DNA of 64,000 nucleotides from Microvirga zambiensis WSM3693 (GTDB taxonomy: Bacteria; Pseudomonadota; Alphaproteobacteria; Rhizobiales; Beijerinckiaceae), in NCBI RefSeq assembly GCF_016735695.1, contig NZ_JAERQD010000029.1:1-64000 (forward strand), in the 5' to 3' direction. The notes below the pieces were generated by a model. That model was not told the DNA's origin, did not search any database, and saw only the letters and a list, made by a program, of their open reading frames with translations. Of this stretch, positions 1,331-19,904 are shown one piece after another. A program made the position numbers and the translations under genes. Positions within the stretch are counted from its first letter, which is position 1. Every line of letters begins with the position of its first letter.

Positions 1331-2571
1331 ACCTCAACCACATCGCCCGGCAAGAGCTCCGTGTTTTCTCCGGACACGATCTTCTCGTAGCGGTCGTTCA
1401 CCCTCCTTGAAATGGAGATCTCCGGACGGGCATTGGAATTTTGGGACGATTGAGAACGGATGCTGCCCGTATAGGCAAGAAGCTTCTGCTGAAGCCCCGC
1501 TAGCCGTGGGCGTATGGAGGACAGCTGGAGCGTAGCAGTCTGCAACTGCTGCAGGAGGTCATCGCGCCGCGCCTCGTCGATCTTGGCCAGATTCCGCACG
1601 ACCTCCTCACGCTCCTTCCGCGCCTGCTCCAGCAGCGCCATCGTTTGAAGATGCCTTGACGCCGATACGAGACTTGCGCGCTTTGCATCCATAACCCGGG
1701 TGACTGGAACAGTTCCACGATCATGGAGATCCTTCAGGTTCTTCAGATCGTCGAGGTCGCTCTGCATCGCCTCCTTTTCTTTCTGCTGCTGCTCGGTCAG
1801 GATCGAGATCTGGGTATCGGACTGCGCAATCCTGCGCTCCATATAGCTCTTCTCTTTCTTGATATTCTCCGTGCGGCTGGACAAGCGATCGCTCTCGACC
1901 GCGGAAATCTGCATCAGCAGCGTCTCAGGGATGCGCACGCTGTCGATTTCCTTGTCGTCGGCATCGGAGCTCTCTCCCAACTCCGCTTTCAGACGCTTTG
2001 CCTGCAGCATCACTTGAACGTACTGCACCTGAAGGGTCTCATACTCGCTTCTCGAATCCACCAGCTGCGTGAGCGGGCTGTCGGACCTGAGCCTGATGGT
2101 GTCATAGCCGCCGGCAACCGCGAGGGCCTGTCGAACGGTCATACCCGGCCGGAAAGGCTGCTCGCCCGGCTTTGACACGTCGCCGTTGATATAGACCGGG
2201 CGGTACTCGACGATGTTGAGCGTGACCTCTTCCGGCATCACGGCGAAGATTAGCTCGCGGCCTTCGTTCGTCCTCTGACGCATCATCCTCTTTGGGATCT
2301 CGGCGCTGATCTTCGCCCGAAGCTCCGAGAGCGTAAGCCCCGCGGCCTTGATCTCGCCCATCACGGGAAGCGAAACGGTGCCATCGAGGCCAAGCACGGC
2401 TCTCTGCTGCATCGGCGTCGTGCCCGCGATGGAAATCTCTATCGTATCACCGGAGGCGAGCCTGTATTCCGCAGCTACGCTGCCATTTGCGAAAAGCAGG
2501 CAGCTTCCGAGAAACGCAAGCAGTGCCGCAATCGGCCTCTTTGTCGGGTTTGCCATCATTTTCATAGCCAT
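1312..2571 (-). CDS. Polysaccharide export protein, ExoF/Wza-type (OPX family)
   Basis: A 419-residue protein. An N-terminal Sec signal (about residues 10-34, hydrophobic LLAFLGSCLLFANG, cut near SVAA|EYRL) is followed by a polysaccharide export domain (YRLASGDTIEISIAG... GEIKAAGLTLSEL, about 35-115). Next comes an SLBB-like segment (VYINGDVSKPGEQPF, about 126-160) and a long coiled coil rich in E, K and Q (about 175-350). This layout matches ExoF of rhizobial exopolysaccharide systems, a periplasmic/outer-membrane export component working with a Wzz-type co-polymerase. The start is supported by a GGGGG element 5 nt upstream. It is the last gene of the leftward set and ends inside a strong hairpin. 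The exact polysaccharide is unknown. Confidence 0.85.
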   Translation of the reverse strand: MAMKMMANPTKRPIAALLAFLGSCLLFANGSVAAEYRLASGDTIEISIAGTTPMQQRAVLGLDGTVSLPVMGEIKAAGLTLSELRAKISAEIPKRMMRQRTNEGRELIFAVMPEEVTLNIVEYRPVYINGDVSKPGEQPFRPGMTVRQALAVAGGYDTIRLRSDSPLTQLVDSRSEYETLQVQYVQVMLQAKRLKAELGESSDADDKEIDSVRIPETLLMQISAVESDRLSSRTENIKKEKSYMERRIAQSDTQISILTEQQQKEKEAMQSDLDDLKNLKDLHDRGTVPVTRVMDAKRASLVSASRHLQTMALLEQARKEREEVVRNLAKIDEARRDDLLQQLQTATLQLSSIRPRLAGLQQKLLAYTGSIRSQSSQNSNARPEISISRRVNDRYEKIVSGENTELLPGDVVEVALRVD

Positions 2572-2636
2572 TCTTACCCCCTATGTCCCAGCTGATGCCT
2601 CAAAGCCTCTGTCAACCTCAAGGCATCGATAACCTT

Positions 2637-4016
2637 CTATCGTCCCAATGCATCGGCAACTTGCGAAGGACCGCTATGGCCGCCTCGAATGCGCCCTCGC
2701 CCGAGAACTGCTTCCGCCGAAGCAGAGGCAGGCTCTTCGATCACTGACGCCAGATACGTTTTCCATTTCGTCTCAGCCCGCTGCTGGCCGAAGTTGGCTT
2801 CGGCCCAGACGCGCGCATTCTCCGCGATCGCAGGCAGGTTCTCGTCATTGCCTCGAATGCGCTTCAATAGACCAGCGAGATCCTCTGATGTTTTCCAGGT
2901 CAGAACATTGACGCCGGACTCCATGCCCATTCCCGTGATTGCCGATTCATGGGCGAGAACGACAGTTCCGTTCAGGGCCGCATGGACGACCTTCGTCTTG
3001 ATGCCGCCCTGCAGCAATTCCGGAACCAGCATCGCCTTGTATTTCTGCAATTCCTCGTCGAGATCATCGACATAACCCTCGAAGCGAATGCTCGGCGAGA
3101 AGTCATAACCGATGCCCTTCTCTCCGACGACATGGAGATCGATATCCCTCAAGCCACGGGAATTAAGATCCAGTCTGATCCTGCTGTCGAACGTCTGGAC
3201 AGCATCCCGGTTGGGTTGATAGGAAAACGCGCCGAGAAAGACCAGATCGCGCCGGCGATCCTCGAATGGAGCAATTCGCGCCGGCCCTTTCACCCTCAGC
3301 GGAGCCGTCGAAATCGATCTCGATGAGGCGAAGGCAAGAGTTTCCGCCTCAGTTGGACTGACAGTCAGCGTCACGCCGGCCTGTTGAGCTACGGCTATCT
3401 CACGGCGTACGAGAATCGCCGCCTCTCTGCGAAGAACCATCTCCAGTATCGGCCGAACGAGCGGGCTTAAGGAACGGATTGCAGGAGCCTTGTGATAACC
3501 AAGCAATCCGTCCAGCCCCCTCCGTTCTTTCGCGAGAAGGCTGTACCGCAACGACAGAAGATCATCGAGATCCGCTATCCAAGGCAGACGCAGGGACTCG
3601 CCATAGACGGCAGTTCTCACCATGTCGGTGATGACGACATCCACCCTCTCGGAACGCACAATGTCACGAAGAGACGCCTGGGCACGCTTACTGAAGTAAA
3701 GGCATTCGTTCAGCGACTTTCGGCCAGGGAGGAAGCCGACGCAGAGCTGGATCATCAACTCCCATGGGCGAGGACCATCGATCCTGATGTGCCGAACCTG
3801 ATTATATTCTTCGGACGGTCCGGCGGTATTCTCAGATGTGTCGGCACCGAAATGTGCGACAATCACACGATGCCCCAGTCCCACCAGGCTTTCCACGGTC
3901 GTCCGCAATACGGACTTGCGCCCTGTCAATTGACCGCGCAGATCACGGGTCGCCACCAAGAGTACGGTCAGCCGCCGATTTCCACCCGATTTTTCGTTCG
4001 AACCGTCTGTGCTCAT
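2637..4016 (-). CDS. Glycosyltransferase, GT4-like
   Basis: A 459-residue GT-B type enzyme expected to transfer a sugar from a nucleotide donor to the lipid-linked repeat unit at the cytoplasmic face. The N-terminal Rossmann half starts LTVLLVATRDLRG and the C-terminal half has LVFLGAFSYQPNRDAV followed by VPELLQGGIKTKVVHAALN. That last stretch sits where GT4 enzymes carry their donor-binding E-x7-E motif; it is more divergent here than in the two upstream GTs. The final 30 residues are low complexity. It overlaps the upstream glycosyltransferase gene by 4 bp (ATGA), so the two are translationally coupled. Donor and acceptor sugars cannot be predicted. Confidence 0.75.
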   Translation of the reverse strand: MSTDGSNEKSGGNRRLTVLLVATRDLRGQLTGRKSVLRTTVESLVGLGHRVIVAHFGADTSENTAGPSEEYNQVRHIRIDGPRPWELMIQLCVGFLPGRKSLNECLYFSKRAQASLRDIVRSERVDVVITDMVRTAVYGESLRLPWIADLDDLLSLRYSLLAKERRGLDGLLGYHKAPAIRSLSPLVRPILEMVLRREAAILVRREIAVAQQAGVTLTVSPTEAETLAFASSRSISTAPLRVKGPARIAPFEDRRRDLVFLGAFSYQPNRDAVQTFDSRIRLDLNSRGLRDIDLHVVGEKGIGYDFSPSIRFEGYVDDLDEELQKYKAMLVPELLQGGIKTKVVHAALNGTVVLAHESAITGMGMESGVNVLTWKTSEDLAGLLKRIRGNDENLPAIAENARVWAEANFGQQRAETKWKTYLASVIEEPASASAEAVLGRGRIRGGHSGPSQVADALGR

Positions 4017-5203
4017 TTTGCTTGCTTCCGCTGAGCGCTCTGAAAATAAGCGGATTGCAATTCCTCGGAGTAGCTCTCGAGATCGGTGTATTTTCTGACT
4101 GCCTTCGTTCCACGATCCGAAAGCGCGATCCGCAAATCTGGGTTGCTCACGACCTCACTCAGCGCATCCGCCAAATGCCCTTCATCGCCGGGACCGACGA
4201 GAATTCCGGCACCATCCTTTATGACTGTGGAAACGTCGCCCACATCCGTCGCGACAACGGGCAATCCGGCCCCCATGGCTTCGAGCAACACCATTGGGAG
4301 GCCTTCCCAGAGCGATGGCAAGGCGAAAGCATCCGACGCAGCCATCAGCCTGCCGACGTCAGACCGAGGTCCGGTCAACTGGACACATCGCTCGGTGCCA
4401 GATGCATTCATGACTTTGACAAGCCGGGCGTAATCGTCGCCGCCACCGACGATGAGAAGTTTGGCATCCGGGTATTTTGCGACAACCTGGCGAAACGCCT
4501 TGATCAATATGTCGAAACCCTTATCGACCGCCAGTCGACCAACCGAGATGACGACGATGTCGTCAGGGCCATACCCGAGAGAAGATCTCACTTGAGATCG
4601 CTCATCGGCACTCAACGATGGGGGCGTATCAATCCGGTTTTCGATGATGTTCATAGGCGTGCGGCCTACGCGCTTGGACTGCATCTTCGCCACGCGCGGA
4701 CCGCACGCGACGACCAGATCCGAGCAATAACTCAGGGCCAGCCGCTCCAGGAAGTTCTTCACATGGTCACGCCACCCCTGCCCGATAGGCCCCTGACTGT
4801 GGAGGGTCACGATGAAACGCGATTGGGCCATCTTTGCGAGGATCGCACCCACGATCGTTGCGTGAACAAGATGCGCGTGAATGACCCGCGGTCGCCACTT
4901 CTTGATAACGCTGCTTAAAACTTTCCAAGACTCCAGGTCGAACAGGCCATTCTGCTGAATCTCTACCAGCTCGATTCCCAACGCCCTTACTTTTTCGGAC
5001 GCAGGAGTCGGCTTGGACAGGTTTATGACGCGGATTGAACAATTTCCGTGCTGCATTGCACGAAGTTGAACGTCGAGTACACGCTGAGCTCCACCGATTC
5101 CGAGGTCATCGATGATGAGAACCACATCGCTTTCACGCGGCTGCGCGTTGGTTCGGCTATCGGCGTGGTTTTCCTCTGGTCGCATGAGTACAGTTGCAGT
5201 CAT
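4013..5203 (-). CDS. Glycosyltransferase family 4
   Basis: A 396-residue GT-B glycosyltransferase. The start chosen is the ATG at 5203-5201, which shares a base with the stop of the upstream gene (TAATG). A longer reading would run 33 codons back over the neighbour's 3' end. The N-terminal half has VVLIIDDLGIGGAQRVLDVQ, a typical 'GGAxR' nucleotide-sugar loop. The C-terminal half has VISVGRLAVDKGFDILIKAF and the catalytic/donor-binding EGLPMVLLEAMGAGLPVVAT. It belongs to a set of three overlapping GT genes, presumably adding successive sugars to the exopolysaccharide repeat. Substrates are not predictable. Confidence 0.85.
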   Translation of the reverse strand: MTATVLMRPEENHADSRTNAQPRESDVVLIIDDLGIGGAQRVLDVQLRAMQHGNCSIRVINLSKPTPASEKVRALGIELVEIQQNGLFDLESWKVLSSVIKKWRPRVIHAHLVHATIVGAILAKMAQSRFIVTLHSQGPIGQGWRDHVKNFLERLALSYCSDLVVACGPRVAKMQSKRVGRTPMNIIENRIDTPPSLSADERSQVRSSLGYGPDDIVVISVGRLAVDKGFDILIKAFRQVVAKYPDAKLLIVGGGDDYARLVKVMNASGTERCVQLTGPRSDVGRLMAASDAFALPSLWEGLPMVLLEAMGAGLPVVATDVGDVSTVIKDGAGILVGPGDEGHLADALSEVVSNPDLRIALSDRGTKAVRKYTDLESYSEELQSAYFQSAQRKQAK

Positions 5204-6501
5204 TACTTTAGGTTCTTCTCGATGGAGGAATCGATCAACGACAGAAGTGCATCGGCGTTCTTGTTCTGGTCGAATTGGGCGAGAACGAGCTCTCTTCCAC
5301 ACAAGGCGCGACGCTGGGCCTCTTCCGGATCGCCACGGACTTCCTCGAGCGCGTAAGCCAACCCCTGCACGTCATCGACTTCGAACAGCCAGCCGGTCAC
5401 GCCGTGGACAATAATCTCAGGGATGCCTGTTAAACGAGCTGCGATGACCGGCCTCTGGTGGGCAAGAGCCTCGACGATAACGGTGGGCAGCCCCTCCGTC
5501 TGGTTTCTCGGCCCGATCCGGCTCGGAACAACCATGACGCTTGCCCGCGCCATGGCCTGCGCGACACGCTCATTGGGCTGCGGGCCGTGAAACGTCACCC
5601 GGTCGGAGAGCCCCAATTCCGCTGTGAGCGCCTCAAGCCTTTGGCGCTCCGGACCGCCTCCCACGATATCCAGGTGCCAATCTCCCAAACTGGCTTTGGT
5701 CAGGGCGCGGAGCAGGACGTCGATCCCCTTCCGAAGCTCCAGGGAGCCGACATAAAGCACTCGCATCTTCTCGGACTGGGACGGCGCCGGTGAAGCCAGA
5801 TTTTCGAGGAATGCTCCGACATGGATGATGACCGGCGGCTTCGTCGCGAGCGCCGGAATGTGGCGGAGGATATATTTGCGATTGTACTCGCTGATCGTGC
5901 GCACGAAGTCCGCCTCGGGAAGCTTGGTGCTCAGAAGCGCCTGCGTTTCGAAGATGTCATGCGCGTGGCAACTGACGCTGAATGGCACATCGGCAACCCG
6001 GCGTATCATCCAGGCGCTTGTCGCGGGATGCCCCGCATAGGCCGCGTGAACATGATCGCCGCCCCACTCGCGAATATCCTCGGCAATTCGCAGAGACTTG
6101 GGGAGGATGAACAGAGATTTGAGCATCATCACGGGGTCGCGTCGGCAACCCACGAGGATGTCACGCACCATGCGTCCGAGAACGCGGGGCTTTCTCCACA
6201 GGGCGCGAAAGCAGGCACCGATCACATCCGGTGAAGCAAAATACGCAAAATCCCTCGACCAGGGGATCGTCTGCTGCGCAAAATCGTGAACAACCTCGCG
6301 CCGGTTGAAATGTGTGAGATGATATATCCGGATATCATAGCCGCTTTTCGAGAACGCAACCACATCCCTCATAATGAAGGTTTCAGTCGTCTTCGGAAAT
6401 TCGGTGACAATAACGGCCAAACGTCGCGGCTCAGGCGTTATGCCCGGCCACTCTGCGACCATGCTGGGAGAGTCCATTTTCTTGATGGGCTGGCTAGTCA
6501 A
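5203..6501 (-). CDS. Glycosyltransferase family 4
   Basis: A 432-residue GT4 enzyme. Motifs include LAVIVTEFPKTTETFIMRD near the N-terminus (as in colanic-acid WcaL-like enzymes), VLYVGSLELRKGIDVLLRAL and EGLPTVIVEALAHQRPVIAA in the donor-binding half. The start is uncertain. TTG at 6501 has a good AAGGGAAG element 7 nt upstream, while the first ATG (6477) has only a weak one. It is first in the three-GT overlapping set, with about 340 bp to the next upstream gene, so a promoter probably lies in that gap. It likely acts in assembly of the surface-polysaccharide repeat unit. Confidence 0.82.
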   Translation of the reverse strand: MTSQPIKKMDSPSMVAEWPGITPEPRRLAVIVTEFPKTTETFIMRDVVAFSKSGYDIRIYHLTHFNRREVVHDFAQQTIPWSRDFAYFASPDVIGACFRALWRKPRVLGRMVRDILVGCRRDPVMMLKSLFILPKSLRIAEDIREWGGDHVHAAYAGHPATSAWMIRRVADVPFSVSCHAHDIFETQALLSTKLPEADFVRTISEYNRKYILRHIPALATKPPVIIHVGAFLENLASPAPSQSEKMRVLYVGSLELRKGIDVLLRALTKASLGDWHLDIVGGGPERQRLEALTAELGLSDRVTFHGPQPNERVAQAMARASVMVVPSRIGPRNQTEGLPTVIVEALAHQRPVIAARLTGIPEIIVHGVTGWLFEVDDVQGLAYALEEVRGDPEEAQRRALCGRELVLAQFDQNKNADALLSLIDSSIEKNLK

Positions 6502-6787
6502 TGCACGTCTTCCCTTGATCGTCGGCCGCTCAAAGCGACATGGTCGAAATACTTTCCTTGACTAAGAAATACGAAGTCTTTTCCAAATTTATGTGAGCTT
6601 CATTACTTATTATTCGAGCAGTGATCATAGCATCTCAAACGATACGCTTCTAATCAGCCTGAAGGGGTATGACTTTACGGGCCTTTTTCAAAACGCCGGC
6701 ACTGTGCCCGGTCTCAAACACGACGAGAGCGCCACCGAACAGGTCGAATTGTCTCTCTGAACGCGGTCGCTCCGCCCGTCGGTTGTC
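6502..6787. other. Intergenic region upstream of the three-GT set
   Basis: The stretch is AT-rich between about 6540 and 6660 and contains no credible gene. It probably holds the leftward promoter of the GT set, but no convincing -35/-10 pair could be fixed. Confidence 0.4.
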
Positions 6788-6827
6788 GGCTGGTCTCGGA
6801 TCCGAACGCTCGGAAGTGAGACCAGCC
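6788..6827 (-). terminator. Long hairpin just downstream of the wzy-wzz fusion gene
   Basis: Perfect 10-bp arms (GGCTGGTCTC / GAGACCAGCC) enclose a 3x3 internal loop and an inner 5-bp stem (TCCGA / TCGGA) with tetraloop ACGC. It starts 16 nt after the stop codon at 6844. No clear U-tract follows on the minus strand, so it is a likely terminator or 3'-end structure rather than a textbook intrinsic terminator. Confidence 0.5.
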
Positions 6828-6843
6828 TGCGTACCTTCCAATG

Positions 6844-10985: not shown

Positions 10986-11504
10986 CGATGCGCTACCACA
11001 GCCCGCGTATCTGCGACGTAGTCATGGGAACTCTGGGCATCGTCACTCCTCTTGGCTTTAGGAAATCGAGAACATCCCTGCGCTGATATCGTAGTTCTCG
11101 GGCAGCGGATTGCCGTCAAAACTCTTGCGTTACACGGTGCAAATTTACCTCGGCCCCTCCGCACCCCGCATTGATCTTCCGAGTTATCCCCCTGCTACTT
11201 ATTCTCCCTGCGTTCATTGGAGCCTCAAATGCTCCCAAAGGTTGCGGGCCAAGTGGCGAATTCGGGTACCGGCAACGGGATTGCAGGCTAGAATTCCTAT
11301 GACTTCTTATGGCGGGCCTGGAGATGCATGACGCGACGGAGATGCCTCGTCATTTTTAATCCGCATCCGATCGAAGGAGCGTAGGTGTGCGATACCTTCT
11401 GGCCGCGCGGTCGCTCTTGGACCTCGGCCGACGCAGAGTCGGCCCGACTCAACAAGGTTCGAGAACGAGATCGCCGATGAGGCAGGCCGAGTGAAAACCG
11501 GCGG
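10986..11504. other. Intergenic region between the beta-helix gene and the flippase gene
   Basis: About 520 bp with no supported gene. It likely holds the promoter of the flippase/polymerase unit. A small hairpin at 11426-11444 is listed separately. Confidence 0.4.
11426..11444 (-). terminator. Possible terminator hairpin after the beta-helix gene
   Basis: GGCCGAC and GTCGGCC form a perfect 7-bp stem around loop GCAGA, about 60 nt downstream of the stop codon at 11505. There is no U-tract, so the call is weak. Confidence 0.3.
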
Positions 11505-12515
11505 TCAGTTCGGCTTCTGTCCCTGCCAGAGCGGCTCGGGATTGTCCGTGACAGTGTTCAGATTGATCTCGCTGTTGATCAATCCGGACGCCCGCTGATA
11601 GTCGCCGTAAACGACTCTGCCGACGCCCGCCAGAGTGTTTCGGGTCACGTTGATATCCCTCGATGGCAGTTCTATCTCGGTATATTCATTCGCGATCATG
11701 ATCCCGACCGCAGGCTTGCCGTAGCGATAAAAGTCTTTCGCATATGTGTGATAGACTTTGTTCTCCTGGACGACGGTAGAAGGTGCGTTGTCGAGATAGA
11801 TGTTGACGCTGTAATTGTCGAAGACGTCATTCCCTAAGATCTGAACACCTTTGGTGGACAGCGTTCCGATGCCCTCGCCGTAGTTGCGGTATACGCGATT
11901 GCCGATCACTGTGCTTTTGTCCGACGCCTGGAGACTGATGCCTTGTGGCCAACCGCCGTCGATCGCGCGCGACTTATATTCCAGGCAATTGTTCCACACT
12001 TCGTTGCGCGCGATAACGTTCGCATAGGAGTGCCCGGCTTCCGTATGACCGATCCAGATCCCGGCCTTCTGGCTCCCCTGGATTCGGTTATCCGAAATCT
12101 CAACGTCATGAACTCCCCATGCGGCGATGCCCCCGCGCGTGGCGTTTCGAACCGTAAAGCCTCTGAAAGTCACGTAGCTCGCATTAATCTGGACCAGGTT
12201 CGTATCGGGCGGCGAACCCGCGCCATCGATGATGACCTCCTCCCCCGAGGCGGGTTCGATGGTGACAGGAAGCTCCGCCGTTCCACCCGACGGGATGACG
12301 ACGACCTCTTTGTACACTCCTCCCAGGACCGTGACCCTCGACCCAGGCTTTGCTTCCTCGGCGGCCTTTGAAATCGATCGGAATGGAAGGGCGACCGTTC
12401 CTGGATTCTTGTCGTCGCCGGCGCTCGAGACGTATAGCGTCGTCGCCAGTGCCGGCATGGACTGAAGTGCCGTCATCGCCACGATCAATGCAACGCGGGT
12501 CTTGCCGATCATCAT
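11505..12515 (-). CDS. Secreted right-handed parallel beta-helix protein
   Basis: A 336-residue protein. A Sec signal peptide (about 1-24, VALIVAMTALQSMPALA, cut before TTLYVS) precedes a beta-helix. Turns such as YVTFRGFTVRNATRGGIAAW, VEISDNRIQGSQKAGIWIG, NVIARNEVWNN and VQILGNDVFDNYSVNIYLD are PbH1-type. The family includes polysaccharide lyases, C5-epimerases and the periplasmic AlgG/AlgK-like helices that accompany exopolysaccharide secretion. Here it probably binds, edits or trims the locus's own polymer. A strong GAGGGGGGA precedes the ATG. It lies 7 bp from the acetyltransferase-like gene upstream, implying one transcript. Catalytic residues could not be assigned. Confidence 0.8.
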   Translation of the reverse strand: MMIGKTRVALIVAMTALQSMPALATTLYVSSAGDDKNPGTVALPFRSISKAAEEAKPGSRVTVLGGVYKEVVVIPSGGTAELPVTIEPASGEEVIIDGAGSPPDTNLVQINASYVTFRGFTVRNATRGGIAAWGVHDVEISDNRIQGSQKAGIWIGHTEAGHSYANVIARNEVWNNCLEYKSRAIDGGWPQGISLQASDKSTVIGNRVYRNYGEGIGTLSTKGVQILGNDVFDNYSVNIYLDNAPSTVVQENKVYHTYAKDFYRYGKPAVGIMIANEYTEIELPSRDINVTRNTLAGVGRVVYGDYQRASGLINSEINLNTVTDNPEPLWQGQKPN

Positions 12516-12522
12516 TCCCCCC

Positions 12523-13560
12523 TCACCTCAACCTGGCACGCCGGTTGAACTCCTGATAAAGCCTGTGAGCCGGCATCAACATGGATTTTATGATCGGCGC
12601 ACCCCGTACGAATTGTCGGAGACCCGACTTGCAGCGCCAGATCATGGGGTTTGCGACGGCAGTCCCCTCGATGAGCGGCACCCTCCGGTTGGAAATCCGG
12701 AGCTTGTAGTCGTTATCGCCTCTCCCGAAATCGATCAGATTGATGCCGATCTTGGGAGCACCCGCCATCATCTCCAGCAGCAAAAGTATTCCTGGAGAAT
12801 GGCGCTGAAACTGTGGATCGTAAGTCGGGAACCAATAGTGCCAGACATTGCCGGACCGCAGGCCGAAATGAGCCGCAATGGGCTGCCCACCGGCACGCAT
12901 GACCGACAGCATTCCAGCGAACTCCGGCTTTCTCTCCGAAGCGATCACATCCATCAGCGCTCTCGCCCAGGGTCTTTCGAAGAGATCTGGTGTGCCGATG
13001 CGATGGTAATGCGCCGATTTCCATTTGAGGCAGAAATCGAGCATAGCCGGATCGGTCGACTGCAGTTCAACCTCGACCTCGCCCACCTCGCGCTCGAGTC
13101 GGCGCCTTTTGCGTCGATGGTCGGCGTAAAGCGCGGTAGATCCTGGAGCCTCGCTTTGAGTCAGATCGACAACCGGAGATTCCGTATCGATCAAACGCCA
13201 AGGTGCGAACATCGTTTGCGGCGCCGGTACGTGATCGAAGCTCCAGGCGCGCAGTTTGCATGCCCGCATAAGAGCGGGAGCATCGCAATCGTAGTCCGGT
13301 TCCGCAATCAGGCCGTGATAATCCGAAACCGGGCCGCCGACGGGCTTGCCCTGCCCTAGCGCGTTTCGCTGGAACGGAAAGAAAGCAGCCCCACCATCAA
13401 GGATGGCGACAAAAACGTCATCCCGGACCTTGGCAACAGACCTCGTGAATTCAGGCCTGAAAAAAGGACTGAAAAGCGTTGAATTCCGCTCCTGAATATT
13501 AGCCCAGCGAGCAATCAGATCTTCCGGCAGCTCATTGGCGGGAACAACAGTTGCTCGCAT
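12523..13560 (-). CDS. GNAT/FemAB-like transferase (BioF2-like acetyltransferase domain)
   Basis: Residues from the ATG at 13560 form a 345-residue protein; an ATG at 13650 would add 30 poorly conserved residues. The C-terminal half has HRRKRRRLEREVGEVEVEL, then FEGMLS-like FAGMLSVMRAGGQPIAAHFGL and HYWFPTYDPQFQRHSPGIL, a pattern of the 'CelD/BcsL' acetyltransferase group (PF13480-like, GNAT fold related to FemAB). Such proteins are common in exopolysaccharide loci and are presumed to acylate sugars or intermediates. A second, divergent member lies at 19905-21083. No signal peptide is seen, so it should act in the cytoplasm. The acyl or aminoacyl donor is unknown. Confidence 0.7.
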   Translation of the reverse strand: MRATVVPANELPEDLIARWANIQERNSTLFSPFFRPEFTRSVAKVRDDVFVAILDGGAAFFPFQRNALGQGKPVGGPVSDYHGLIAEPDYDCDAPALMRACKLRAWSFDHVPAPQTMFAPWRLIDTESPVVDLTQSEAPGSTALYADHRRKRRRLEREVGEVEVELQSTDPAMLDFCLKWKSAHYHRIGTPDLFERPWARALMDVIASERKPEFAGMLSVMRAGGQPIAAHFGLRSGNVWHYWFPTYDPQFQRHSPGILLLLEMMAGAPKIGINLIDFGRGDNDYKLRISNRRVPLIEGTAVANPMIWRCKSGLRQFVRGAPIIKSMLMPAHRLYQEFNRRARLR

Positions 13561-13685
13561 CAATAGATCCACGTTCAAAAATTCAGAGGGAATTCCGCCT
13601 CTTGCGCCAATGCCGTCAGCCAATGTGCAGGAGTCGGCGTCATCAGGCATTTCCGGTCGAGATGCCGTCTCCCCGGACAGGCCAC

Positions 13686-14855
13686 CTAGAAAAGCGGCGC
13701 TCCGAGTACTGCTGCCGTCGATGTCCGAACCTTGAAAAGCGCATTGCCGTCCGTGACCCCGACGTGATGGCGCCGAACATTGTAGCAGCTCGTCTTTCCG
13801 GCAATATTCTTACCGCCATGGAACGAGAACGCGATCCGGTACCCCGCCCTGCGAAGCGCCTCCTGCGTATGTTCGTTGAAGCTGTCCGGCGCGCCGACGG
13901 GATAGGCTAGAGACTGAATCTCGATGCCGAGATCCTGTTCGAGCATCTGCTTCGAAAGACTCACCTCCTCCAATTGAAGCTCGGGGCTCAAATGGCTCAG
14001 CAAGGGATGAGAGTGAGTATGGGAGCCGACTGCCATTCCATTGTCGGACATCTCCTTCAGCTCTGCTTTATTCATGAAAATACGCTCGCAGGGGCGCTCA
14101 TCACCGGTCCCGGTGGACCGAGCGATCTCTCGGAGAAACTTATCCTTATCGAGATTGTGCTTCGTCTTGTAGATGCACAGGAGACGGTTCAATGCCTGCA
14201 GCTTGCCGTCATCGAGATCGAGGGTCAGCGGCTCAGGATAATTCAAGACTACCTTTGAGTTTCGCGACGTCTTTATCATAAAGGCAATCTGGTCCCACCA
14301 GGGCAGCTGCGAACTGCCGAGGTAGGAAGTGCAGATGAAGAACGTCCCCTCGACTCTGTGCTTGTGCAGGATAGGAAATGCATAATCGTAATTGTCTTTG
14401 TACCCATCGTCGAAGGTGAGCAGGATCCCCGCCTTGCGAAGGGTTGTTTTTCCCTCAACAAAAGCAATGGCTTCATCCAGCGTGCTGATATGATAGCGCT
14501 GCTTGATCCACCTGACCTGTTCCTCGAGGTCGCTCGGAGTCGCGGAGTACAGATTGGGATCTCCGACGGTGTCGCTCGGAGAGCCGATACGATGATAGTT
14601 GAGGACAACCAGGCAGTTCTGTTGCGGAAGCCGCTCTAGAATTCTCAATCCGCCCGTTGCCGCTATGAGCGAGGCAAGCCGTTGCCGCTTCGACTTTCTA
14701 GACGAGGGCACTGCGCCAGATTGCCTGAGATGAAGGTTCATCCGATCTATAGCCGCCGTCAACTGAGCAACTCCTCCGACTAGGAAATCATCGCTCGCCT
14801 GCCCACCCGATCGGAAAGCTTCGGCGAGTTTTTTCGATCTGTGTTCTAAAAGCAT
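13686..14855 (-). CDS. Polysaccharide deacetylase, NodB homology domain
   Basis: The open frame extends to a TTG at 15005, but that codon lies inside a terminator-like hairpin, so I take the ATG at 14855 (389 residues). An ATG at 14741 is also possible, and no start has a good ribosome site. NodB motifs are clear: LLTFDDGYKDNYDYAF (catalytic Asp and metal Asp), GSHTHSHPLLSHL (metal His pair) and LAYPVGAPDSF. The N-terminal LVVLNYHRIG segment is typical of extracellular polysaccharide deacetylases. It would remove N- or O-acetyl groups from the polymer or a lipid-linked intermediate. No obvious signal peptide is seen with any start, which leaves its compartment open. Confidence 0.82.
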   Translation of the reverse strand: MLLEHRSKKLAEAFRSGGQASDDFLVGGVAQLTAAIDRMNLHLRQSGAVPSSRKSKRQRLASLIAATGGLRILERLPQQNCLVVLNYHRIGSPSDTVGDPNLYSATPSDLEEQVRWIKQRYHISTLDEAIAFVEGKTTLRKAGILLTFDDGYKDNYDYAFPILHKHRVEGTFFICTSYLGSSQLPWWDQIAFMIKTSRNSKVVLNYPEPLTLDLDDGKLQALNRLLCIYKTKHNLDKDKFLREIARSTGTGDERPCERIFMNKAELKEMSDNGMAVGSHTHSHPLLSHLSPELQLEEVSLSKQMLEQDLGIEIQSLAYPVGAPDSFNEHTQEALRRAGYRIAFSFHGGKNIAGKTSCYNVRRHHVGVTDGNALFKVRTSTAAVLGAPLF

Positions 14856-15003
14856 TCTAAACCATGGGCCAGGGACATAAAATAAGCAGTCAAGCTTCTT
14901 AAAAGTTACCTCATCCGCGCCGCTGGATGGACTGATGTTTCCCTTGGATCCCGGTCTCACTGCAGCGAAGGGGCGCTTGGCCGAATGATGCTTACTCGCG
15001 ATC

Positions 15004-15032
15004 AAGCCCGGAGCTTACTCGGCTCCGGGCTT
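15004..15032 (-). terminator. Terminator-like hairpin after exoY-like gene
   Basis: AAGCCCGGAGC and GCTCCGGGCTT form a perfect 11-bp GC-rich stem around a 7-nt loop, 26 nt downstream of the exoY-like stop codon. Only two U residues follow, so it may attenuate rather than stop transcription into the deacetylase gene. Confidence 0.55.
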
Positions 15033-15057
15033 GGAGAGCTGCAAGCTGGGCTTTTCG

Positions 15058-15705
15058 TCAGCAGGATCCGTCCATCTTGATCACGCAGACCACCGTTTTC
15101 AGGAGAATCATGATGTCGCGCCTGAAGGTCCAGTTCTTAACGTAGTCCTCGTCGAGCTTCACACGCTGCGAGTACGAGACTTTGTTTCGCCCGCTGATTT
15201 GCCAGAGACCGGTTATTCCGGGCCGGGTCTGATAATAGAGATGCATTGCCTTGTTGTAGTGCGGGACTTCCGCAGATGTTATGGGCCGCGGACCGACCAG
15301 GCTCATGTGGCCCAACAGGACATTGAACAGTTGGGGAAGCTCATCGAGACTGGTCTTGCGCAGTATCGCTCCGAGCGGCGTGATACGAGGATCGTTCTGC
15401 AGCTTGTGGTTCTGCAGCCATTCCTCCCGGGCCTCCGGGTCGTTTTCGAGGTGGCGTGCCAGCACATCGGCCGCATCGACGACCATTGTTCGAAATTTCA
15501 GACACGGAAACACGGTGCCTGAAGGGCCCAGACGCATGTGCTTGATCACCGCGGGCCCGCCGTCGGTTATCAGGATCAGGAGATAGACCGCTATCATGAG
15601 CGGCGACAGGAGGAGGATGGCGAGAGCACTTACGATAAAGTCGAAGATTCGCTTGGAATCTCCGCCAGTCAGCTTCAAACGAAGAATTTGGGTTGCTTCA
15701 TGCAT
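15058..15705 (-). CDS. Undecaprenyl-phosphate sugar-1-phosphate transferase, ExoY-like
   Basis: A 215-residue polyprenyl-phosphate sugar phosphotransferase that starts repeat-unit synthesis by loading the first sugar-1-phosphate on undecaprenyl phosphate. An N-terminal membrane hairpin (RIFDFIVSALAILLLSPLMI, about 19-48) is followed by CLKFRTMV, DPRITPLGAILRKTSLDELP, LFNVLLGHMSLVGPRPI and RPGITGLWQISGRNKVSYS. All are hallmarks of the bacterial sugar transferase family. The length matches short ExoY/WcaJ-C-type enzymes. It stands at the upstream end of the leftward polysaccharide set and is followed by a strong hairpin. Whether it uses UDP-Gal or UDP-Glc cannot be told. Confidence 0.9.
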   Translation of the reverse strand: MHEATQILRLKLTGGDSKRIFDFIVSALAILLLSPLMIAVYLLILITDGGPAVIKHMRLGPSGTVFPCLKFRTMVVDAADVLARHLENDPEAREEWLQNHKLQNDPRITPLGAILRKTSLDELPQLFNVLLGHMSLVGPRPITSAEVPHYNKAMHLYYQTRPGITGLWQISGRNKVSYSQRVKLDEDYVKNWTFRRDIMILLKTVVCVIKMDGSC

Positions 15706-16143
15706 CGATTACATCCAGTACAAATGCAAGAGTACTTTGGTCGATGGGAGAGAGTGCCGGGCAACCGGCGCTTAAGCACTTTGGTTCGCTGATGCCGGAA
15801 TCTAGTTGCTTCGTACGGGGCTGAACAAGCAATCAACGGCATTACAACTTAAGGGGTCGGAGCCGTTCTGAACGCGATGGCGATCGGGCAAGATCCTCAT
15901 GAAGTAGCCCTGAATAGATCGGGCGGACTCTCTCACCTCCGGCAGATCACGCGACATGACAGCATATTGGGGTTTCGTGGCGGTAGCTGTTCTGATCGGA
16001 CCGGCGGTAGGATCGCTCGTGCGTCATGCCTCTCTCACCCATTTCTCCGGATGGGGACGAGCGAAGACCGACAGAGCGGTCTTGAGCGCCGGGTAGCGCG
16101 CGTTGTCGATTCTGTTCCGGCATGTGCGGTACTTACGAAAAGG
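15706..16143. other. Intergenic region between exoY-like gene and the tRNA
   Basis: Holds the leader of the exoY-like gene. A stem at 15753-15772 (AGTGCCGG / CCGGCGCT with GCAA tetraloop, one wobble) lies 48 nt upstream of its ATG. The octamer ACTTTGGT occurs on either side of that stem. One doubtful short reading frame is listed separately. Confidence 0.4.
15956..16096 (+). CDS. Possible 46-aa single-pass membrane microprotein (doubtful)
   Basis: ATG at 15956 opens a 46-codon frame starting MTAYWGFVAVAVLIGPAVG, one plausible membrane helix, followed by a polar basic tail. No good Shine-Dalgarno sequence precedes it and nothing is known of homologues from the sequence alone. It is reported because its hydrophobicity pattern is not what chance usually gives; it may still be spurious. 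Confidence 0.22.
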   Translation: MTAYWGFVAVAVLIGPAVGSLVRHASLTHFSGWGRAKTDRAVLSAG

Positions 16144-16228
16144 TGGCTCCCAGAGAGGGCCTCGAACCCCCACGCCTTGCGGCGGCGCGTCAACAGCACG
16201 CTGCGTCTTCCAATTTCGCCATCTGGGA
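16144..16228 (-). tRNA. Atypical type II tRNA, anticodon GUU (leucine-like body, asparagine-like identity)
   Basis: Read on the minus strand, an 85-nt sequence folds as a complete cloverleaf with encoded CCA. The acceptor stem is TCCCAGA/TCTGGGA (7 of 7 pairs) and the discriminator is G73. The D-arm is GCG-AAATTGGAAGA-CGC, closely resembling tRNA-Leu. The anticodon stem is GCGTG/CGCGC with loop CTGTTGA, which puts GTT at 34-36. A long variable arm follows (CGCC-GCAA-GGCG), then T-arm GGGGG-TTCGAGG-CCCTC. D, variable and T arms are as in alphaproteobacterial tRNA-Leu. The U1-A72 pair, C2-G71, C3-G70, G73 and anticodon are as in tRNA-Asn. Position 37 is G, not the A expected for an ANN-reading tRNA. 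CCTTTTC follows the CCA. The pairing is intact, so decay is unlikely. Charging and function are unknown. Confidence 0.8.
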
Positions 16229-16593
16229 TCGTACGCGGTGTTTTCTGGCCGGCAACTGACTGCAACGGTATAGTTCACTATGTTGTGTGCTTACAGCCGA
16301 TCGCCTCGTTAAGAATCTATTATCGGGCCGTTCCCAATAGCAAGATTGTGATCTTAGCTATTATGAATTACTCCAAATCATGAATGTTTCTGCCCGCGAT
16401 CTGCCGCGAGGATTTCCGGTTGAAGACTGCTCTTTTGCGCTGTGGCACCGGTGAAGCCGCACGTGAAAATGGATGTATTACCCTATTTGAGCTCGCTGGC
16501 TCTGTTCGCGCGCCATCGTTGCGGATCGATCTGACCGATGAACAGTCCAAAAGAGCCATGCCCGTTTGCAGGAGGATCGGTTAGATCGTTCAC
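16229..16593. other. Intergenic region upstream of tRNA and vanZ-like gene
   Basis: About 365 bp, divergent between the leftward tRNA and the rightward VanZ-like gene, so it should hold both promoters. A small palindrome ATAGT-GA-ACTAT lies at 16270-16281. AGGAGG at 16570-16575 is 18 nt from the VanZ ATG, further than usual. No clear -35/-10 pair could be fixed. Confidence 0.35.
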
Positions 16594-16938
16594 ATGACTC
16601 CTAAAGTCTTCTTTCGTTGCGTCGCATGGCTTCTCATCGGCGCCATCGCGGTCTTCACCCTTTCGCCCATCGAGCTGCGGCCCATGACCGGGGCGCCGGC
16701 CAACCTGGAGCGGGTTGCCGCCTTCGTCGCCATTGGAGCCGCGTTCTGCCTCGGTTATCCAAGACATCGGCTCTCCATCCTCGTCCTGCTGATAGCGGCC
16801 GTCGGCCTCCTCGAGATCGCCCAGAATCACGTTCCGGGTCGCCATGGTCGCCTTCCGGACGGCTTGGTGAAGGTATCGGGGGTTCTTCTCGGAGCGGCCT
16901 TCGCCACGTTTGCGACCCGCTGGAAACAATTGCCCTAA
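16594..16938 (+). CDS. VanZ-like membrane protein
   Basis: A 114-residue protein with three to four membrane segments (WLLIGAIAVFTLSPIELRP at about 11-30, VAAFVAIGAAFCLGY, LSILVLLIAAVGLLEIAQ, LVKVSGVLLGAAFATFA). The sequence 'FTLSPIELRP' followed by 'LLEIAQNHVPGRHGRLPDGL' fits the VanZ-like family, whose C-terminal E-x-x-Q...R-x-x-x...D signature is visible. VanZ-like proteins often occur in polysaccharide loci, but their role there is not defined. The ATG at 16594 has its nearest purine-rich site (AGGAGG) 18 nt away. It converges with the GNAT gene, with two hairpins between. Confidence 0.78.
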   Translation: MTPKVFFRCVAWLLIGAIAVFTLSPIELRPMTGAPANLERVAAFVAIGAAFCLGYPRHRLSILVLLIAAVGLLEIAQNHVPGRHGRLPDGLVKVSGVLLGAAFATFATRWKQLP

Positions 16939-16978
16939 AGACGCCCAGCGAAGGCGTCTCCTGTCGCCAGACGACAGG
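16939..16978. terminator. Tandem hairpins between convergent vanZ-like and GNAT genes
   Basis: Two perfect 7-bp stems stand back to back: AGACGCC/GGCGTCT (16939-16959) and CCTGTCG/CGACAGG (16960-16978). Their position between convergent genes fits a bidirectional terminator, although U-tracts are poor. Confidence 0.5.
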
Positions 16979-16991
16979 CCTTCCTGCTGGC

Positions 16992-17681
16992 TTAATCCGA
17001 CATTTTTGAAGAGTCGATGGCGATGCGGAACAGATTTCTCCCGCCGGGGCTGGAATAGGACAAGCGCGGCAGATCCCGTCCCAGAACGAGTGCCTTCCCG
17101 ATGGTCCTGAAGCCGATCCGCTTAAGCGCCTTCAGCGACGGTTGATTGTGTATCTCGATATAGCTGACGAGTCCTCTACAGCTTCCCTCGCCTGTCAGAG
17201 CCCGGAAAGCTTGAGCGACTCCGGTGCCGCAGAGCCGCCGGCCTCGGAAGGCCATCGCCGTAAAGGTCTTGTACATATAGATATAGTCCCGCTGGACATG
17301 TGCCGTCAGCTGCTCGGAGACAGGTGTCGGGCGCGTCGCATACCAGGCATAGGCGCCTAATATTCCATTCTCGACAAAACCGTAGCATCGGTCCCCTCGA
17401 TCGAAAGCTGCGGAAAGGAAGCCGGCATCCAGCTCAAGCGACGGATCCTGCTCTGCTAAGAGCCCAAGTTCGTCGAAGCCCAGGAACTTCCAACGCTCAT
17501 CGAGGTCTGTCACCAAGCTCCAGTCCATATCGCCGCGCTCCAGCGTGACGATCTGGAGAAGGAGCATTGTGACAATGCTGTTGGCATAGCGGTAGACAAC
17601 ATAAAGAACGGCATAGGCAATGCCATGATACACGAGATAGCGACGTAGCCCGCCATACGCCCTCCTCAGCCACAAACGCAT
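16992..17681 (-). CDS. GNAT-fold N-acetyltransferase with N-terminal membrane segment
   Basis: A 229-residue protein. Residues about 20-42 form a hydrophobic helix (GIAYAVLYVVYRYANSIV), unusual for a soluble acetyltransferase and suggesting membrane association. The C-terminal two thirds has a GNAT-like core: YIYMYKTFTAMAFRGRRLCG, GTGVAQAFRALTG (acetyl-CoA loop) and YIEIHNQPSLKALKRIGFRT, which is the classic 'N..S...Y...GF' end of the fold. AGGAAG 4 nt upstream supports the start. It is likely part of the polysaccharide accessory set, modifying a sugar or lipid at the membrane, but the substrate is not known. Confidence 0.65.
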   Translation of the reverse strand: MRLWLRRAYGGLRRYLVYHGIAYAVLYVVYRYANSIVTMLLLQIVTLERGDMDWSLVTDLDERWKFLGFDELGLLAEQDPSLELDAGFLSAAFDRGDRCYGFVENGILGAYAWYATRPTPVSEQLTAHVQRDYIYMYKTFTAMAFRGRRLCGTGVAQAFRALTGEGSCRGLVSYIEIHNQPSLKALKRIGFRTIGKALVLGRDLPRLSYSSPGGRNLFRIAIDSSKMSD

Positions 17682-18175
17682 GTCGCTTCCTAACTGCTAC
17701 CGAACCACGCCGTTGATCCGGAACCCGCGAAAAGCTCAGATCCAGCAATCCTGCGCCGCGGCGAATGGGGAGAAAATCCTGGACACAGCCTGCCGCAGCA
17801 TCAAGCCCTTAAGCCTAGCCATCGGTTGCGATCACGTCAGATGATCTTCAGCGGTAACACCAGGCTGACGGCCGGTCGCCCGAGACCCGCAGCTGAAATG
17901 GAATGATTGACGGGCGTCTGCGGCGGACTTGGCCTTGTTGGAGTTGTTAGGGCTTTGAATACCGCACAGGCGCGAAAATCGTCTGGCTGTTTGGGACAGG
18001 TTAAGCGGACGGGCGTCTCCTAGGAACGGAGATTGTCATATCTCAACGCCGGGATCCGTGACCCGTGCGCACGGATCGACAGGAAAATCTACCTGCAAGC
18101 ATTTCTGCGTATTCCGACTGGACAGTCGAATAGGGATTACCTCATAGTAGTGGGGCGACTGCACAGAGGATTGGG
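17682..18175. other. Intergenic region, no supported gene
   Basis: About 490 bp between the divergent GNAT gene and the small membrane protein gene. It presumably contains their promoters. Nothing else could be recognised. Confidence 0.35.
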
Positions 18176-18349
18176 ATGGTCTTGTTACTGGCTTCTGCCC
18201 TCCTGGGCGGATCTATCACTTTCGTAACGCTTTTGTCCTACGGGATACTTCCTGCGCTTGCGGGGGCTCCTTTCGGCGGAAGTTTTCTGGCCCTTTTGGC
18301 CGGCCTTCTCCTCGCCTCTCTGAGAACCGCGGCGGAACGCTCCGCTTAG
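18176..18349 (+). CDS. Small two-helix membrane protein, 57 aa
   Basis: ATG at 18176, preceded by GAGG with a 6-nt spacer (GAGGATTGGGATG), opens a 57-codon frame ending at TAG 18349. The product starts MVLLLASALLGGSITFVTLL and continues SYGILPALAGAPFGGSF and LALLAGLLLASLR. It has two hydrophobic helices separated by a Gly/Pro-rich hinge and a short charged tail (TAAERSA). Good ribosome site, codon use and hydrophobic pattern all argue that it is real. No function can be assigned. It sits alone between a GNAT gene and the RTX gene. Confidence 0.6.
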   Translation: MVLLLASALLGGSITFVTLLSYGILPALAGAPFGGSFLALLAGLLLASLRTAAERSA

Positions 18350-19041
18350 CGCAAGTTCACGATGTCTGAAGCGTCTTGCAATGCTCATTGGTTCGCAGCG
18401 TGCGACGCGGGCAATGACTGGTGGGCCCAGCCCGCTCGAACGCCTGTCAAGCAACGGTTTATCGCCTGATCCAGGTCTCTGGAAAATCGGCTTCTCATGA
18501 TAATACCGCGAAGCGGGCGACGCCAATGACGGAGCACACGTCTGACGACGACGCGTGGCTTCCGTTCCTCAATGGAAACTATTGAATCGCCTTAATCCGA
18601 CACGCCGGAGGCTCACCGATCAGCAACGGCTTTTTGCGCTCTTCAAAGAGTGGAGCGTCGGATTGAATCCCAAAGTAGGTCCACTTTTGGATGCGATGTT
18701 CTAGGTCTTCATACCCACAATGACATCCCCGTTTAGACTATTCGGCAGGGAACAAATTGGCTGCCCGATAGTAAAGCGCAATGGCCAACGAAATGCTGCG
18801 ACTGGCCGATGGAGTTAGCGAAGGGGACTAAGTATTAGGTCCACCTCTATGTTGAGGTAGAGCTTATATCCTATTAAGAGCTATTTTTTCTCACTCGCTA
18901 TTATCAATATACTTTCTCATGCTGTGTATCTGCAGGGCAGGCTGAAGCTTTTACCCTGGAGAATGCTGCTGACTTTTAGTTGTTTGCCGAAATGGGGCGC
19001 TCGGCACTTCTCAGCGCTCAGCTCTGAACGAGGCTAGCACC
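18350..19041. other. Intergenic region upstream of the RTX gene, partly AT-rich
   Basis: About 690 bp. The part from 18830 to 18930 is very AT-rich and may contain the RTX gene promoter. A short ACCTC-TATGTT-GAGGT stem lies near 18850. No transposase fragment or RNA gene was recognised. Confidence 0.35.
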
Positions 19042-19890
19042 ATGCAGTATCTTAGTTGGAGTGGTACATTCAATCTCAACCCTTGGGGAGATCTTGGCAG
19101 CCCGGGCGACCCGCCAAGAAGCGGCCCTCCCGGAGGCGAAGTAGCAGGCATCTCAAATAATCTCGTTTGGGGCGGAGCCAGTGATCTTTATACGATCTAT
19201 GGCACAGCGGATATCGACGTCATTTTTCTTGATGTAAAAGGTTATGACACTCCGCGGCTGGTCAACGTCACACAATTCTTCGGCGGAACCGGCAATGATT
19301 TGATCGACATGACTTCCGACCGCTTCACGTACGGAGCGGTAACGATCAATGGTGGAACCGGAAACGACTGGCTTTTCGGAAATGCAGGACGCGATCGCCT
19401 GTATGGGTCGTCCGGAGCCGACTATCTGAAGGGTTACGGCGGCAACGACTACCTGAGCGGCGGAGACAACAACGACCGTCTCTTTGGCGGTCGCGGAAAC
19501 GATAAGCTGAGTGGTGGATCGGGACACGATTATCTGTACGGAGAGTACGGACAAGACATTCTGACCGGTGGAAAGGGCAACGACCGGTTCGTTTTTGATG
19601 TTTCACCCATCAAAGCGAATTTGGACACGATTACCGATTTCTCCGTGCGGGACGACACCATCCAACTTGCCCGATCCGTCTTCACCAAGGTGGGCCCGAA
19701 AGGCGCCCTGAAGGCAGGCGCCTTTTGGATCGGGTCTGAGGCGCACGACGCAAGCGACCGGGTCATCTACAACGAAAACACCGGCTATCTCTATTATGAC
19801 CCCGACGGCACAGGCGGAGCCCATCAGCAGGCCATCGCGAAGCTGTCGAAGGGCCTCGACATGACGCACAAGGACCTCTTCATCATCTAA
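19042..19890 (+). CDS. RTX-type calcium-binding protein, probable type I secretion substrate
   Basis: A 282-residue acidic protein without a Sec signal. Residues 1-80 match no domain I recognise. From about 81 to 183 there are RTX nonapeptides of the GGxGxDxLx type, such as GGTGNDWLFG, GNAGRDRLYG, GYGGNDYLSG, GGRGNDKLSG and GGKGNDRFVF, which fold into a Ca2+-bound beta-roll outside the cell. The C-terminal 95 residues (DTITDFSVRDDTIQL ... YYDPDGTGG ... DLFII) resemble the C-terminal region of serralysins and other type I secreted proteins, ending in a hydrophobic signal. No metalloprotease motif is present. No type I exporter lies in the window. A role in binding or organising the exopolysaccharide is plausible but inferred. 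Confidence 0.85.
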   Translation: MQYLSWSGTFNLNPWGDLGSPGDPPRSGPPGGEVAGISNNLVWGGASDLYTIYGTADIDVIFLDVKGYDTPRLVNVTQFFGGTGNDLIDMTSDRFTYGAVTINGGTGNDWLFGNAGRDRLYGSSGADYLKGYGGNDYLSGGDNNDRLFGGRGNDKLSGGSGHDYLYGEYGQDILTGGKGNDRFVFDVSPIKANLDTITDFSVRDDTIQLARSVFTKVGPKGALKAGAFWIGSEAHDASDRVIYNENTGYLYYDPDGTGGAHQQAIAKLSKGLDMTHKDLFII

Positions 19891-19904
19891 CCGGAAGTCG
19901 TCAG

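Follow-up and report, generated by a model that had tools for sequence, protein, structure and literature searches.

Transfer RNAs that join a class II body, with its long variable arm, to a class I anticodon have been described from nematodes as nev-tRNAs; in the available part of that report, nev-tRNA-Gly keeps leucine identity and can decode GGG as leucine (PMC4033280). A second precedent is a phage gene. CcrColossus has 28 tRNA genes, its tRNA cluster includes a tRNA-Asn (JX100810) that is found in this phage only among six related Caulobacter phages, and the accessible text of the paper makes no mention of a long arm in this tRNA (PMC3556154). Bacteria that lack AsnRS make Asn-tRNA by means of a non-discriminating AspRS and then GatCAB, which reads the U1-A72 pair (PMC4206432, available text). 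The identity elements for aspartate include G73, G34, and U35, and in bacterial tRNA-Asp the G1-C72 and G2-C71 pairs are described as crucial to aspartate identity (PMC9976931, accessible portion).

Here we describe a class II tRNA-Asn(GUU) gene in Microvirga zambiensis WSM3693, a bacterium of soil and root nodules. We otherwise met class II GUU tRNAs with asparagine marks in phages only. In the parts of the open-access literature that were available, we found no description of a class II or long-arm tRNA-Asn.

Results

A leucine-type tRNA body with asparagine marks

The window, by which we mean the whole stretch of DNA that was analysed (64,000 nt; NZ_JAERQD010000029.1, positions 1 to 64,000), holds a single tRNA, called by ARAGORN as tRNA-Asn with the anticodon gtt (Table 1). 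The complete cloverleaf reported in the initial annotation is borne out by ARAGORN and by the sequence: all 7 acceptor pairs form, including U1-A72 and C2-G71, the D stem has 3 bp, the anticodon stem has 5 bp with one U.G, the T stem has 5 bp with one G.U, and the CCA is encoded. The 12-nt variable arm has a 4-bp stem. The T-run noted on the 3' side is present, merely as CCTTTT; we found no terminator-like site and no sigma-70-like promoter.

Table 1 Features of the class II tRNA-Asn locus, in window coordinates.
Feature	Position	Strand	Basis and remarks
Class II (long variable arm) tRNA-Asn(GUU) gene with encoded CCA	16144..16228	-	ARAGORN, sequence, homologues
Anticodon GTT (G34 U35 U36)	16192..16194	-	ARAGORN; gene position 35
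G37, directly 3' of the anticodon	16191	-	Sequence
Discriminator G73 and encoded CCA	16144..16147	-	Sequence; G73 in 9/9 copies
Long variable arm CGCC-GCAA-GGCG (loop GCAA)	16173..16184	-	Gene positions 45-56; sequence, pair count
Upstream element TTGGAGTAATTCATAATAGCTAA	16354..16376	-	126-148 nt before the tRNA start; alignment of 8 carriers
Stretch still aligning with G004, where the tRNA is located elsewhere	16126..16382	-	About -154 to +102 around the tRNA start

With speed filters on, the Rfam tRNA family RF00005 (at least 29 bits) gives no match for the gene; three tRNA-Leu genes used as controls under the same filters score 52.0-59.3 bits. The minimum-energy fold does not rise above that of shuffled sequences (z = -0.85, 37 of 200 shuffles as good), so the structural case for the gene is the fit to the cloverleaf together with its conservation. 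We regard it as confirmed that this is a real tRNA gene, with a Leu-type body, GUU, U1-A72, and G73.

To place the body of the tRNA we used a covariance model trained on 18 tRNA-Leu genes from the same and related genomes, with filters off. The gene scores 80.9 bits, against 40.8-49.3 bits for the four tRNA-Ser genes of its own genome, 48.0 bits for its tRNA-Tyr, and 41.8 bits for its canonical tRNA-Asn, all of them outside the training set; two tRNA-Leu genes reach 97.9 and 99.5 bits, scores that are flattered because both were used in training. These scores show that the body, with its D arm and variable arm, is of the leucine type, as had been annotated. The T arm, which had been assigned to tRNA-Leu as well, is not plainly so: G60 closes the T loop, as in just 1 of the 18 Leu controls. 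The gene has Leu-type D and variable arms and lacks A73 and a leucine anticodon.

At pair 1-72, position 73, and the anticodon, it matches the canonical tRNA-Asn of its own genome. GUU, G73, and U1-A72 are found, together with C2-G71, G37, and the 12-nt variable arm, in all nine copies known from the genus (see below); the Leu controls have G1-C72 and A73 in 18/18. These data show that the leucine marks (G1-C72, A73, and a leucine anticodon) have been swapped for U1-A72, G73, and GUU in a Leu-type body, and the joint set of asparagine marks proposed at the outset stands. The canonical type I tRNA-Asn also shares G10 with the class II gene and differs in its short variable loop, A37, and a different body (50/85 columns).

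G37 had been described as a replacement of A37. The base is indeed G, but it need not be a special replacement, since 14 of the 18 Leu controls have G37: it is found in 14/14 controls with the anticodons CAG, TAG, or GAG, and A37 in 4/4 with TAA or CAA. G37 is therefore most plausibly a leftover from a parental tRNA-Leu of the CAG/GAG/TAG type. Among the controls, all eight tRNA-Leu(CAG) genes (8/18) have the acceptor core CCCAG (C2 C3 C4 A5 G6) of the class II gene. Across the same and related genera, tRNA-Leu(CAG) is like the class II gene in this core, in G37, in the D arm, and, in some relatives, in the variable arm, but differs in G1-C72, A73, T60, and the anticodon. The best tRNA-Leu is identical to the class II gene at 65 of 87 aligned columns. 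Possibly, then, the gene was either made from a CAG-type tRNA-Leu in the host lineage or derived from a phage.

Distribution and conservation

The initial annotation proposed two look-ups, one for the gene in close genomes and one for a normal type I tRNA-Asn(GUU) elsewhere in this genome, and both came out positive. The class II gene is found in 9 of 48 genomes of the genus: G000 (the window's own genome, counted among the carriers), G003, G004, G017, G021, G023, G031, G036, and G047. Within the genus set, stretches of G047, G041, and G020 match plasmids of Microvirga ossetica, M. terrae, and Microvirga sp. VF16, respectively, with full identity. As for the canonical gene, the Rfam tRNA model marks 51 places in the window's genome, all of which were re-read with ARAGORN (one is without an ARAGORN call), and among these is one tRNA-Asn, the type I gene at C246. 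Across the genus its 75 nt are the same in 46 of 48 genomes, every one of the nine carriers among them (the exceptions are G007, with no match, and G025, with a weak match alone), and so the class II gene is a spare. In the genus comparison the class II gene is the faster-changing of the two. G040 (C23:360639-360687) and G045 (C99:77229-77277) each hold, about 0.4 kb and 15 kb, respectively, from the intact canonical gene, an exact duplicate of its positions 27-75; these are probable attachment-site duplicates of integrated islands.

Beyond the genus, we scanned sampled genomes for a pattern made of the exact Leu-type D arm and the GUU loop, one that other class II designs, like unsampled species, would escape. 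The family scan matched 10 of 397 genomes, eight of them known Microvirga carriers (G031 was outside the sample); the other two matches, in G026 and G755, were rejected because ARAGORN finds no tRNA around either. The class scan (1/385) and the phylum scan (1/398) matched the window's genome alone. In these family, class, and phylum samples, the pattern scans found no bacterial class II tRNA-Asn beyond Microvirga. Within the genus the carriers are dispersed on the AspRS tree, with 8 changes compared to a shuffled mean of 8.4 and 236 of 500 shuffles as low; a distribution this patchy (9/48, unclustered) counts against function.

The copies themselves are well conserved. Those in G000, G047, G017, and G021 are identical over 85 nt, and the others differ from the window's copy at 1 to 5 positions. 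In the four genomes with identical copies, AspRS genes are 93.3-96.0% identical to one another at the DNA level. The G000 and G047 loci share 74.7% identity over 839 alignment columns with the tRNA counted in, or about 72% without it (counted by hand), and at this flank rate the probability of zero change in 85 nt is of the order of 1e-12. Other pairs give either 86-128 columns, hardly beyond the tRNA, or 234-576 columns at 67-77% (G003/G004, 576 columns at 67.7%); G000/G021 align over 1351 columns at 68.4%. Identical tRNA copies between diverged flanks argue for purifying selection. A separate measure of flank identity, made with a gap-tolerant aligner, was no better than its shuffled controls.

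Among the nine copies, 11 columns vary, 6 of them in loops. At 2 others the change leaves a standard pair in place (anticodon stem, U.G to U-A; acceptor, A-U to G.U), and at the last 3 pairing is broken. Counted over the 6 distinct sequences, pairing holds in 141 of 144 cells and fails at the variable-arm pair 45-56 (G036 and G031) and at one T-stem pair (G031). Unpaired stem changes, which had been named as grounds for calling the gene a pseudogene, thus do occur, in G036 and G031 alone; all acceptor, D, anticodon, and T stem pairs are kept in 8/9 copies, in line with the annotated view that this is not simply a decaying pseudogene. We reject a pseudogene as the whole answer for most copies, in which the stems hold while the flanks diverge. 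The G031 copy, with a variable-arm pair and a T-stem pair lost and C56 changed to U, looks damaged. The search for stem covariation, also suggested at the outset, came back empty: there are no compensatory double changes among the nine copies, pairing is 97.9% compared to 98.0% in shuffles, and covariation is not above shuffles. Covariation among the nine copies therefore lends the gene no support.

At position 13, six carriers (G000, G003, G017, G021, G031, and G047) have A and three (G004, G023, and G036) have G. This split corresponds to two groups of the AspRS tree with supports of 97/97 and 94/99, the latter, for the smaller group, being below the starred level. Position 50 in the variable loop (C or A) does not match it, and A15, U48, G18, and G19 are unchanged in all nine copies. 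We read the gene as an old presence in Microvirga with many losses; transfer within the genus may also have occurred.

Genomic context and the possibility of a relic

The window's gene neighbourhood is common to G000, G047, and G021; the other six carriers are not syntenic. In G036 and G004 the tRNA lies near a common operon with an NRPS-like protein (named by reading), in different arrangements; at the loci L043 and L044, the genes concerned are at +1677..4652 and +3853..6834 from the tRNA start. The remaining four carrier loci have neither the window's neighbourhood nor this operon in common. We found no functional tie to neighbour genes, given that the neighbourhood is not common to the carriers as a whole, and the suggested use in stress-specific translation or by a transferase gains nothing from surroundings that three carriers share and six others do not. 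In the window, the tRNA is inside a polysaccharide-type gene cluster (9519-22705) whose genes, by reading of the ORFs, include a sugar transferase, a polysaccharide deacetylase, a flippase-like protein, and a glycosyltransferase. Two acyltransferase-like proteins (12523-13650 and 19905-21083) and an ORF with RTX-type glycine-aspartate repeats (19042-19890) were named in the same way.

A block upstream of the tRNA is present, stronger or weaker, in 8/9 carriers, with weaker forms in G021, G003, and G036; by locus comparison it is absent in G023. A pattern search with the element TTGGAGTAATTCATAATAGCTAA from this block, allowing up to 2 mismatches, gave one match each in 6 of 48 genomes, five of them at the class II tRNA and one, in G007, elsewhere with 2 mismatches. 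The reversed-pattern control gave 4 matches, so that 2-mismatch matches alone could be chance. We rejected the element as a site common to other genes, since the genus matches lie at the tRNA in 5/6 genomes. No known promoter type was recognised in it; it may be a promoter or a regulator site.

In G047 (C1 near 4.70 Mb; L108), the last 23 nt of the class II gene recur on their own. The 3' flank of this copy resembles that of the G004 locus, and no tRNA was called in the 19.5-kb stretch. The copy resembles the distal boundary of an element that had integrated into a class II tRNA gene, or else the remnant of a second copy.

These observations bear on the possibility that the gene is a relic, an ex-phage or duplicated tRNA in the course of being lost that is kept by chance, through recent transfer, or as a landing site for integration. 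We think this unlikely, but the patchy distribution and the damage to the G031 copy keep it among the rivals. That 39 of 48 genus genomes appear to do without the gene, that six of nine loci are not syntenic with the window, and that the class II gene changes where the canonical one is constant in 46/48 genomes would all suit a gene on its way out, and a 23-nt 3' end is what an integrated element could leave behind. A relic would not, however, be expected to show four identical copies despite diverged flanks or a similar upstream block in 8/9 carriers, and the agreement of position 13 with the AspRS-tree groups argues for vertical descent under constraint.

Charging and decoding

Charging by AsnRS, the enzyme named in the initial annotation, is not supported in Microvirga. 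AsnRS (TIGR00457) is over the curated cut-off in 0/48 genus genomes, compared to 7/14 control genomes, and the best partial matches fall on AspRS places. Instead, AspRS (TIGR00459) is over the cut-off in 48/48 genomes and GatB (TIGR00133) in 47/48 (controls 12/14); the sole genome below is G026, where the GatB match is in two pieces (C108:361641-363055). With AsnRS absent, charging of the class II tRNA-Asn should go via a non-discriminating AspRS and GatCAB. The gene has the GUU, G73, and U1-A72 of a tRNA on this route, in genomes with the pathway genes and without AsnRS, and lacks the short variable loop and A37 of tRNA-Asn. Neither the class II nor the canonical tRNA-Asn has the G1-C72 or G2-C71 of tRNA-Asp, which for the class II gene is a point against this reading. 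Five AspRS sequences carry CHRIRDHGG or VHRIRDHGG near the N-terminus, with an H that we take to be typical of non-discriminating AspRS, and we infer that the Microvirga enzyme is non-discriminating.

The t6A modification requires A37, and formation of m1G37 by TrmD requires G36. It follows that G37 is probably unmodified in this tRNA and that decoding is probably weaker.

Alternatively, AspRS may charge the tRNA and GatCAB amidate it poorly or not at all because of the long arm, leading to Asn-to-Asp mistranslation or to an Asp donor for a non-ribosomal transferase. Such a distinct product would explain a second gene in cells whose canonical tRNA-Asn already gives Asn-tRNA, and the NRPS-like protein (by reading) encoded near the gene in G036 and G004 would fit. 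We consider this outcome improbable, since U1-A72, the pair read by GatCAB, would be needless and yet is found in 9/9 copies, and the neighbours are not common to the carriers as a whole. Serine is very unlikely to be the amino acid attached. A long arm combined with G73 is of the serine type and might allow SerRS to put Ser at AAY codons, and replacing A73 by G73 is reported, in different contexts, to switch some tRNA-Leu to serine acceptance; but the same source has G1-C72 and G2-C71 conserved in the tRNA-Ser of E. coli and of most bacteria (PMC9976931, accessible portion). The four tRNA-Ser genes of the window's genome begin GGAG, as opposed to U1-A72 and C2-G71 here, the D arm is Leu-type, and the change to U1-A72 would be without reason. 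We dismiss as highly improbable that LeuRS still charges the tRNA, as in nematode nev-tRNAs, to give Leu at AAY codons: the D arm and variable arm are Leu-type and the invariant A15, U48, G18, and G19 are tied to leucylation in E. coli, but A73, crucial for Leu identity there (PMC9976931, accessible portion), is G in 9/9 copies, and G1-C72 is lost too. The Microvirga gene shares with nev-tRNAs, described from nematodes, the class II body with a class I anticodon; it differs in that the Leu determinant A73 is gone and asparagine marks are present (PMC4033280, available part).

Class II GUU tRNAs in phages

The design is not one of a kind: phages have class II GUU tRNAs with the same marks. One pattern search of viral contigs gave 28 stretches; another, in part less strict, gave 37, including 14 absent from the first. 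At these 42 viral loci ARAGORN called 24 distinct GTT tRNAs of at least 82 nt; the remaining loci are without such a call, several with a much longer variable arm. We aligned 24 viral sequences (alignment A3), made up of 22 from IMG/VR plus CcrColossus and Milchi, leaving out L083 and the second L087 gene, which have no Leu-type D arm, and phiPsa374. G73 is found in 24/24, U1-A72 in 22/24, and A1-U72 in 2/24, although the patterns set no demand on positions 1, 72, and 73; G10-C25, also in 24/24, was demanded. At position 37, 13 have A, 8 have T, 3 have C, and none has G; at position 60, 10/24 have a purine. With G73 in all 24 viral tRNAs and U1-A72 in 22, against G1-C72 and A73 in 18/18 Leu controls, the asparagine marks recur.

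The tRNA-Asn of CcrColossus has, like the Microvirga gene, a class II body, GUU, U1-A72, G73, the T stem GGGGG/CCCTC, and a purine at 60; it differs in A37, the acceptor stem, and the variable arm. In the phage search, CcrPW gives a similar match. The closest sequence that we found is the class II GUU tRNA at L101 (IMG/VR 3300009081_000009), identical at 68 of 87 aligned columns; once the identity positions are masked, the Microvirga genes cluster with this viral tRNA, though at a support of only 61%. It differs in being viral, in A37, and in lying between two type I GUU tRNAs, and this adjacent triplet indicates that in phages as well a class II gene can be retained alongside ordinary tRNA-Asn.

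Database searches gave more distant matches. At E <= 1e-5, the plasmid search returned 4 records with 75-77% identity and no gene annotated there, and the phage search returned 4 Rhizobium phage records. At E <= 1 the phage search reached 127 records; among the 60 matches listed are the tRNA-Asn genes of CcrColossus and CcrPW, many tRNA-Leu, and some matches in protein genes. The 39-nt 5' half of the class II tRNA-Asn has 0 exact matches in the viral contigs. Recent arrival from a phage or plasmid in the collections searched was rejected on the last result and on the 75-77% identity of the plasmid matches.

Three further viral tRNAs differ in design or label. L083:3500-3587 is a GUU tRNA with a long variable arm, a non-Leu D arm, and G1-C72, a possible second route to a class II tRNA-Asn. 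L099:4277-4352 is a tRNA-Asn with a Leu-type D arm and a short variable loop, possibly an intermediate form. In Pseudomonas phage phiPsa374 (L198), a tRNA-Asn annotated as 'tRNA-Pseudo-GTT' looks like the same class II design.

Discussion

We put at roughly 0.55 the probability that this gene encodes a functional, auxiliary tRNA-Asn of class II form that is maintained by purifying selection and may have come from a phage, a reading drawn from sequence comparison. In this mechanism the gene would have been built from a CAG-type tRNA-Leu, or brought by a phage, and then kept. A non-discriminating AspRS would read the anticodon and G73 to form Asp-tRNA, GatCAB would read U1-A72 and amidate the product to Asn-tRNA, and EF-Tu would bring this to the ribosome, as a minor species reading AAC and AAU. 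Decoding of these codons would probably be weaker, since G37 cannot carry t6A.

What such a tRNA might offer the cell is a guess: an Asn tRNA with a different body may, for example, not be recognised by a nuclease or regulator that targets the canonical one. This idea was prompted by a study reporting that phage-encoded tRNA-Tyr and tRNA-Lys can rescue phages whose host cleaves tRNAs; in its available text, tRNA-Asn of E. coli or of phage origin gave no rescue from PrrC170, and nothing was found on a class II tRNA-Asn (PMC11555353). More tentatively, we suggest that class II tRNA-Asn could be a recurrent tRNA type that arises from tRNA-Leu via fixed changes (GUU, G73, and usually U1-A72), spreads in large phages, and has been taken into a bacterial chromosome; in Microvirga it might then be kept in reserve, its foreign body safeguarding Asn decoding should the canonical tRNA-Asn be cut or otherwise disabled.

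Such genes may be under-reported, given that RF00005 gave no report of the Microvirga gene and that a phage gene bears the label 'tRNA-Pseudo-GTT'. According to its available text, tRNAscan-SE 2.0 can flag disagreement between the anticodon and the isotype model (PMC8450103).

The class II tRNA-Asn departs from the usual rule on which tRNAs bear a long extra arm. A conserved bacterial long-arm tRNA-Asn, along with the phage matches, suggests that a natural switch from Leu to Asn takes few positions. The tRNA is also a ready substrate for asking whether a long arm is accepted by AspRS, GatCAB, EF-Tu, and the ribosome. Finally, it provides a natural test of why cells and phages retain redundant tRNAs, with a spare that differs from the canonical tRNA-Asn in its body and at position 37, and not in its anticodon.
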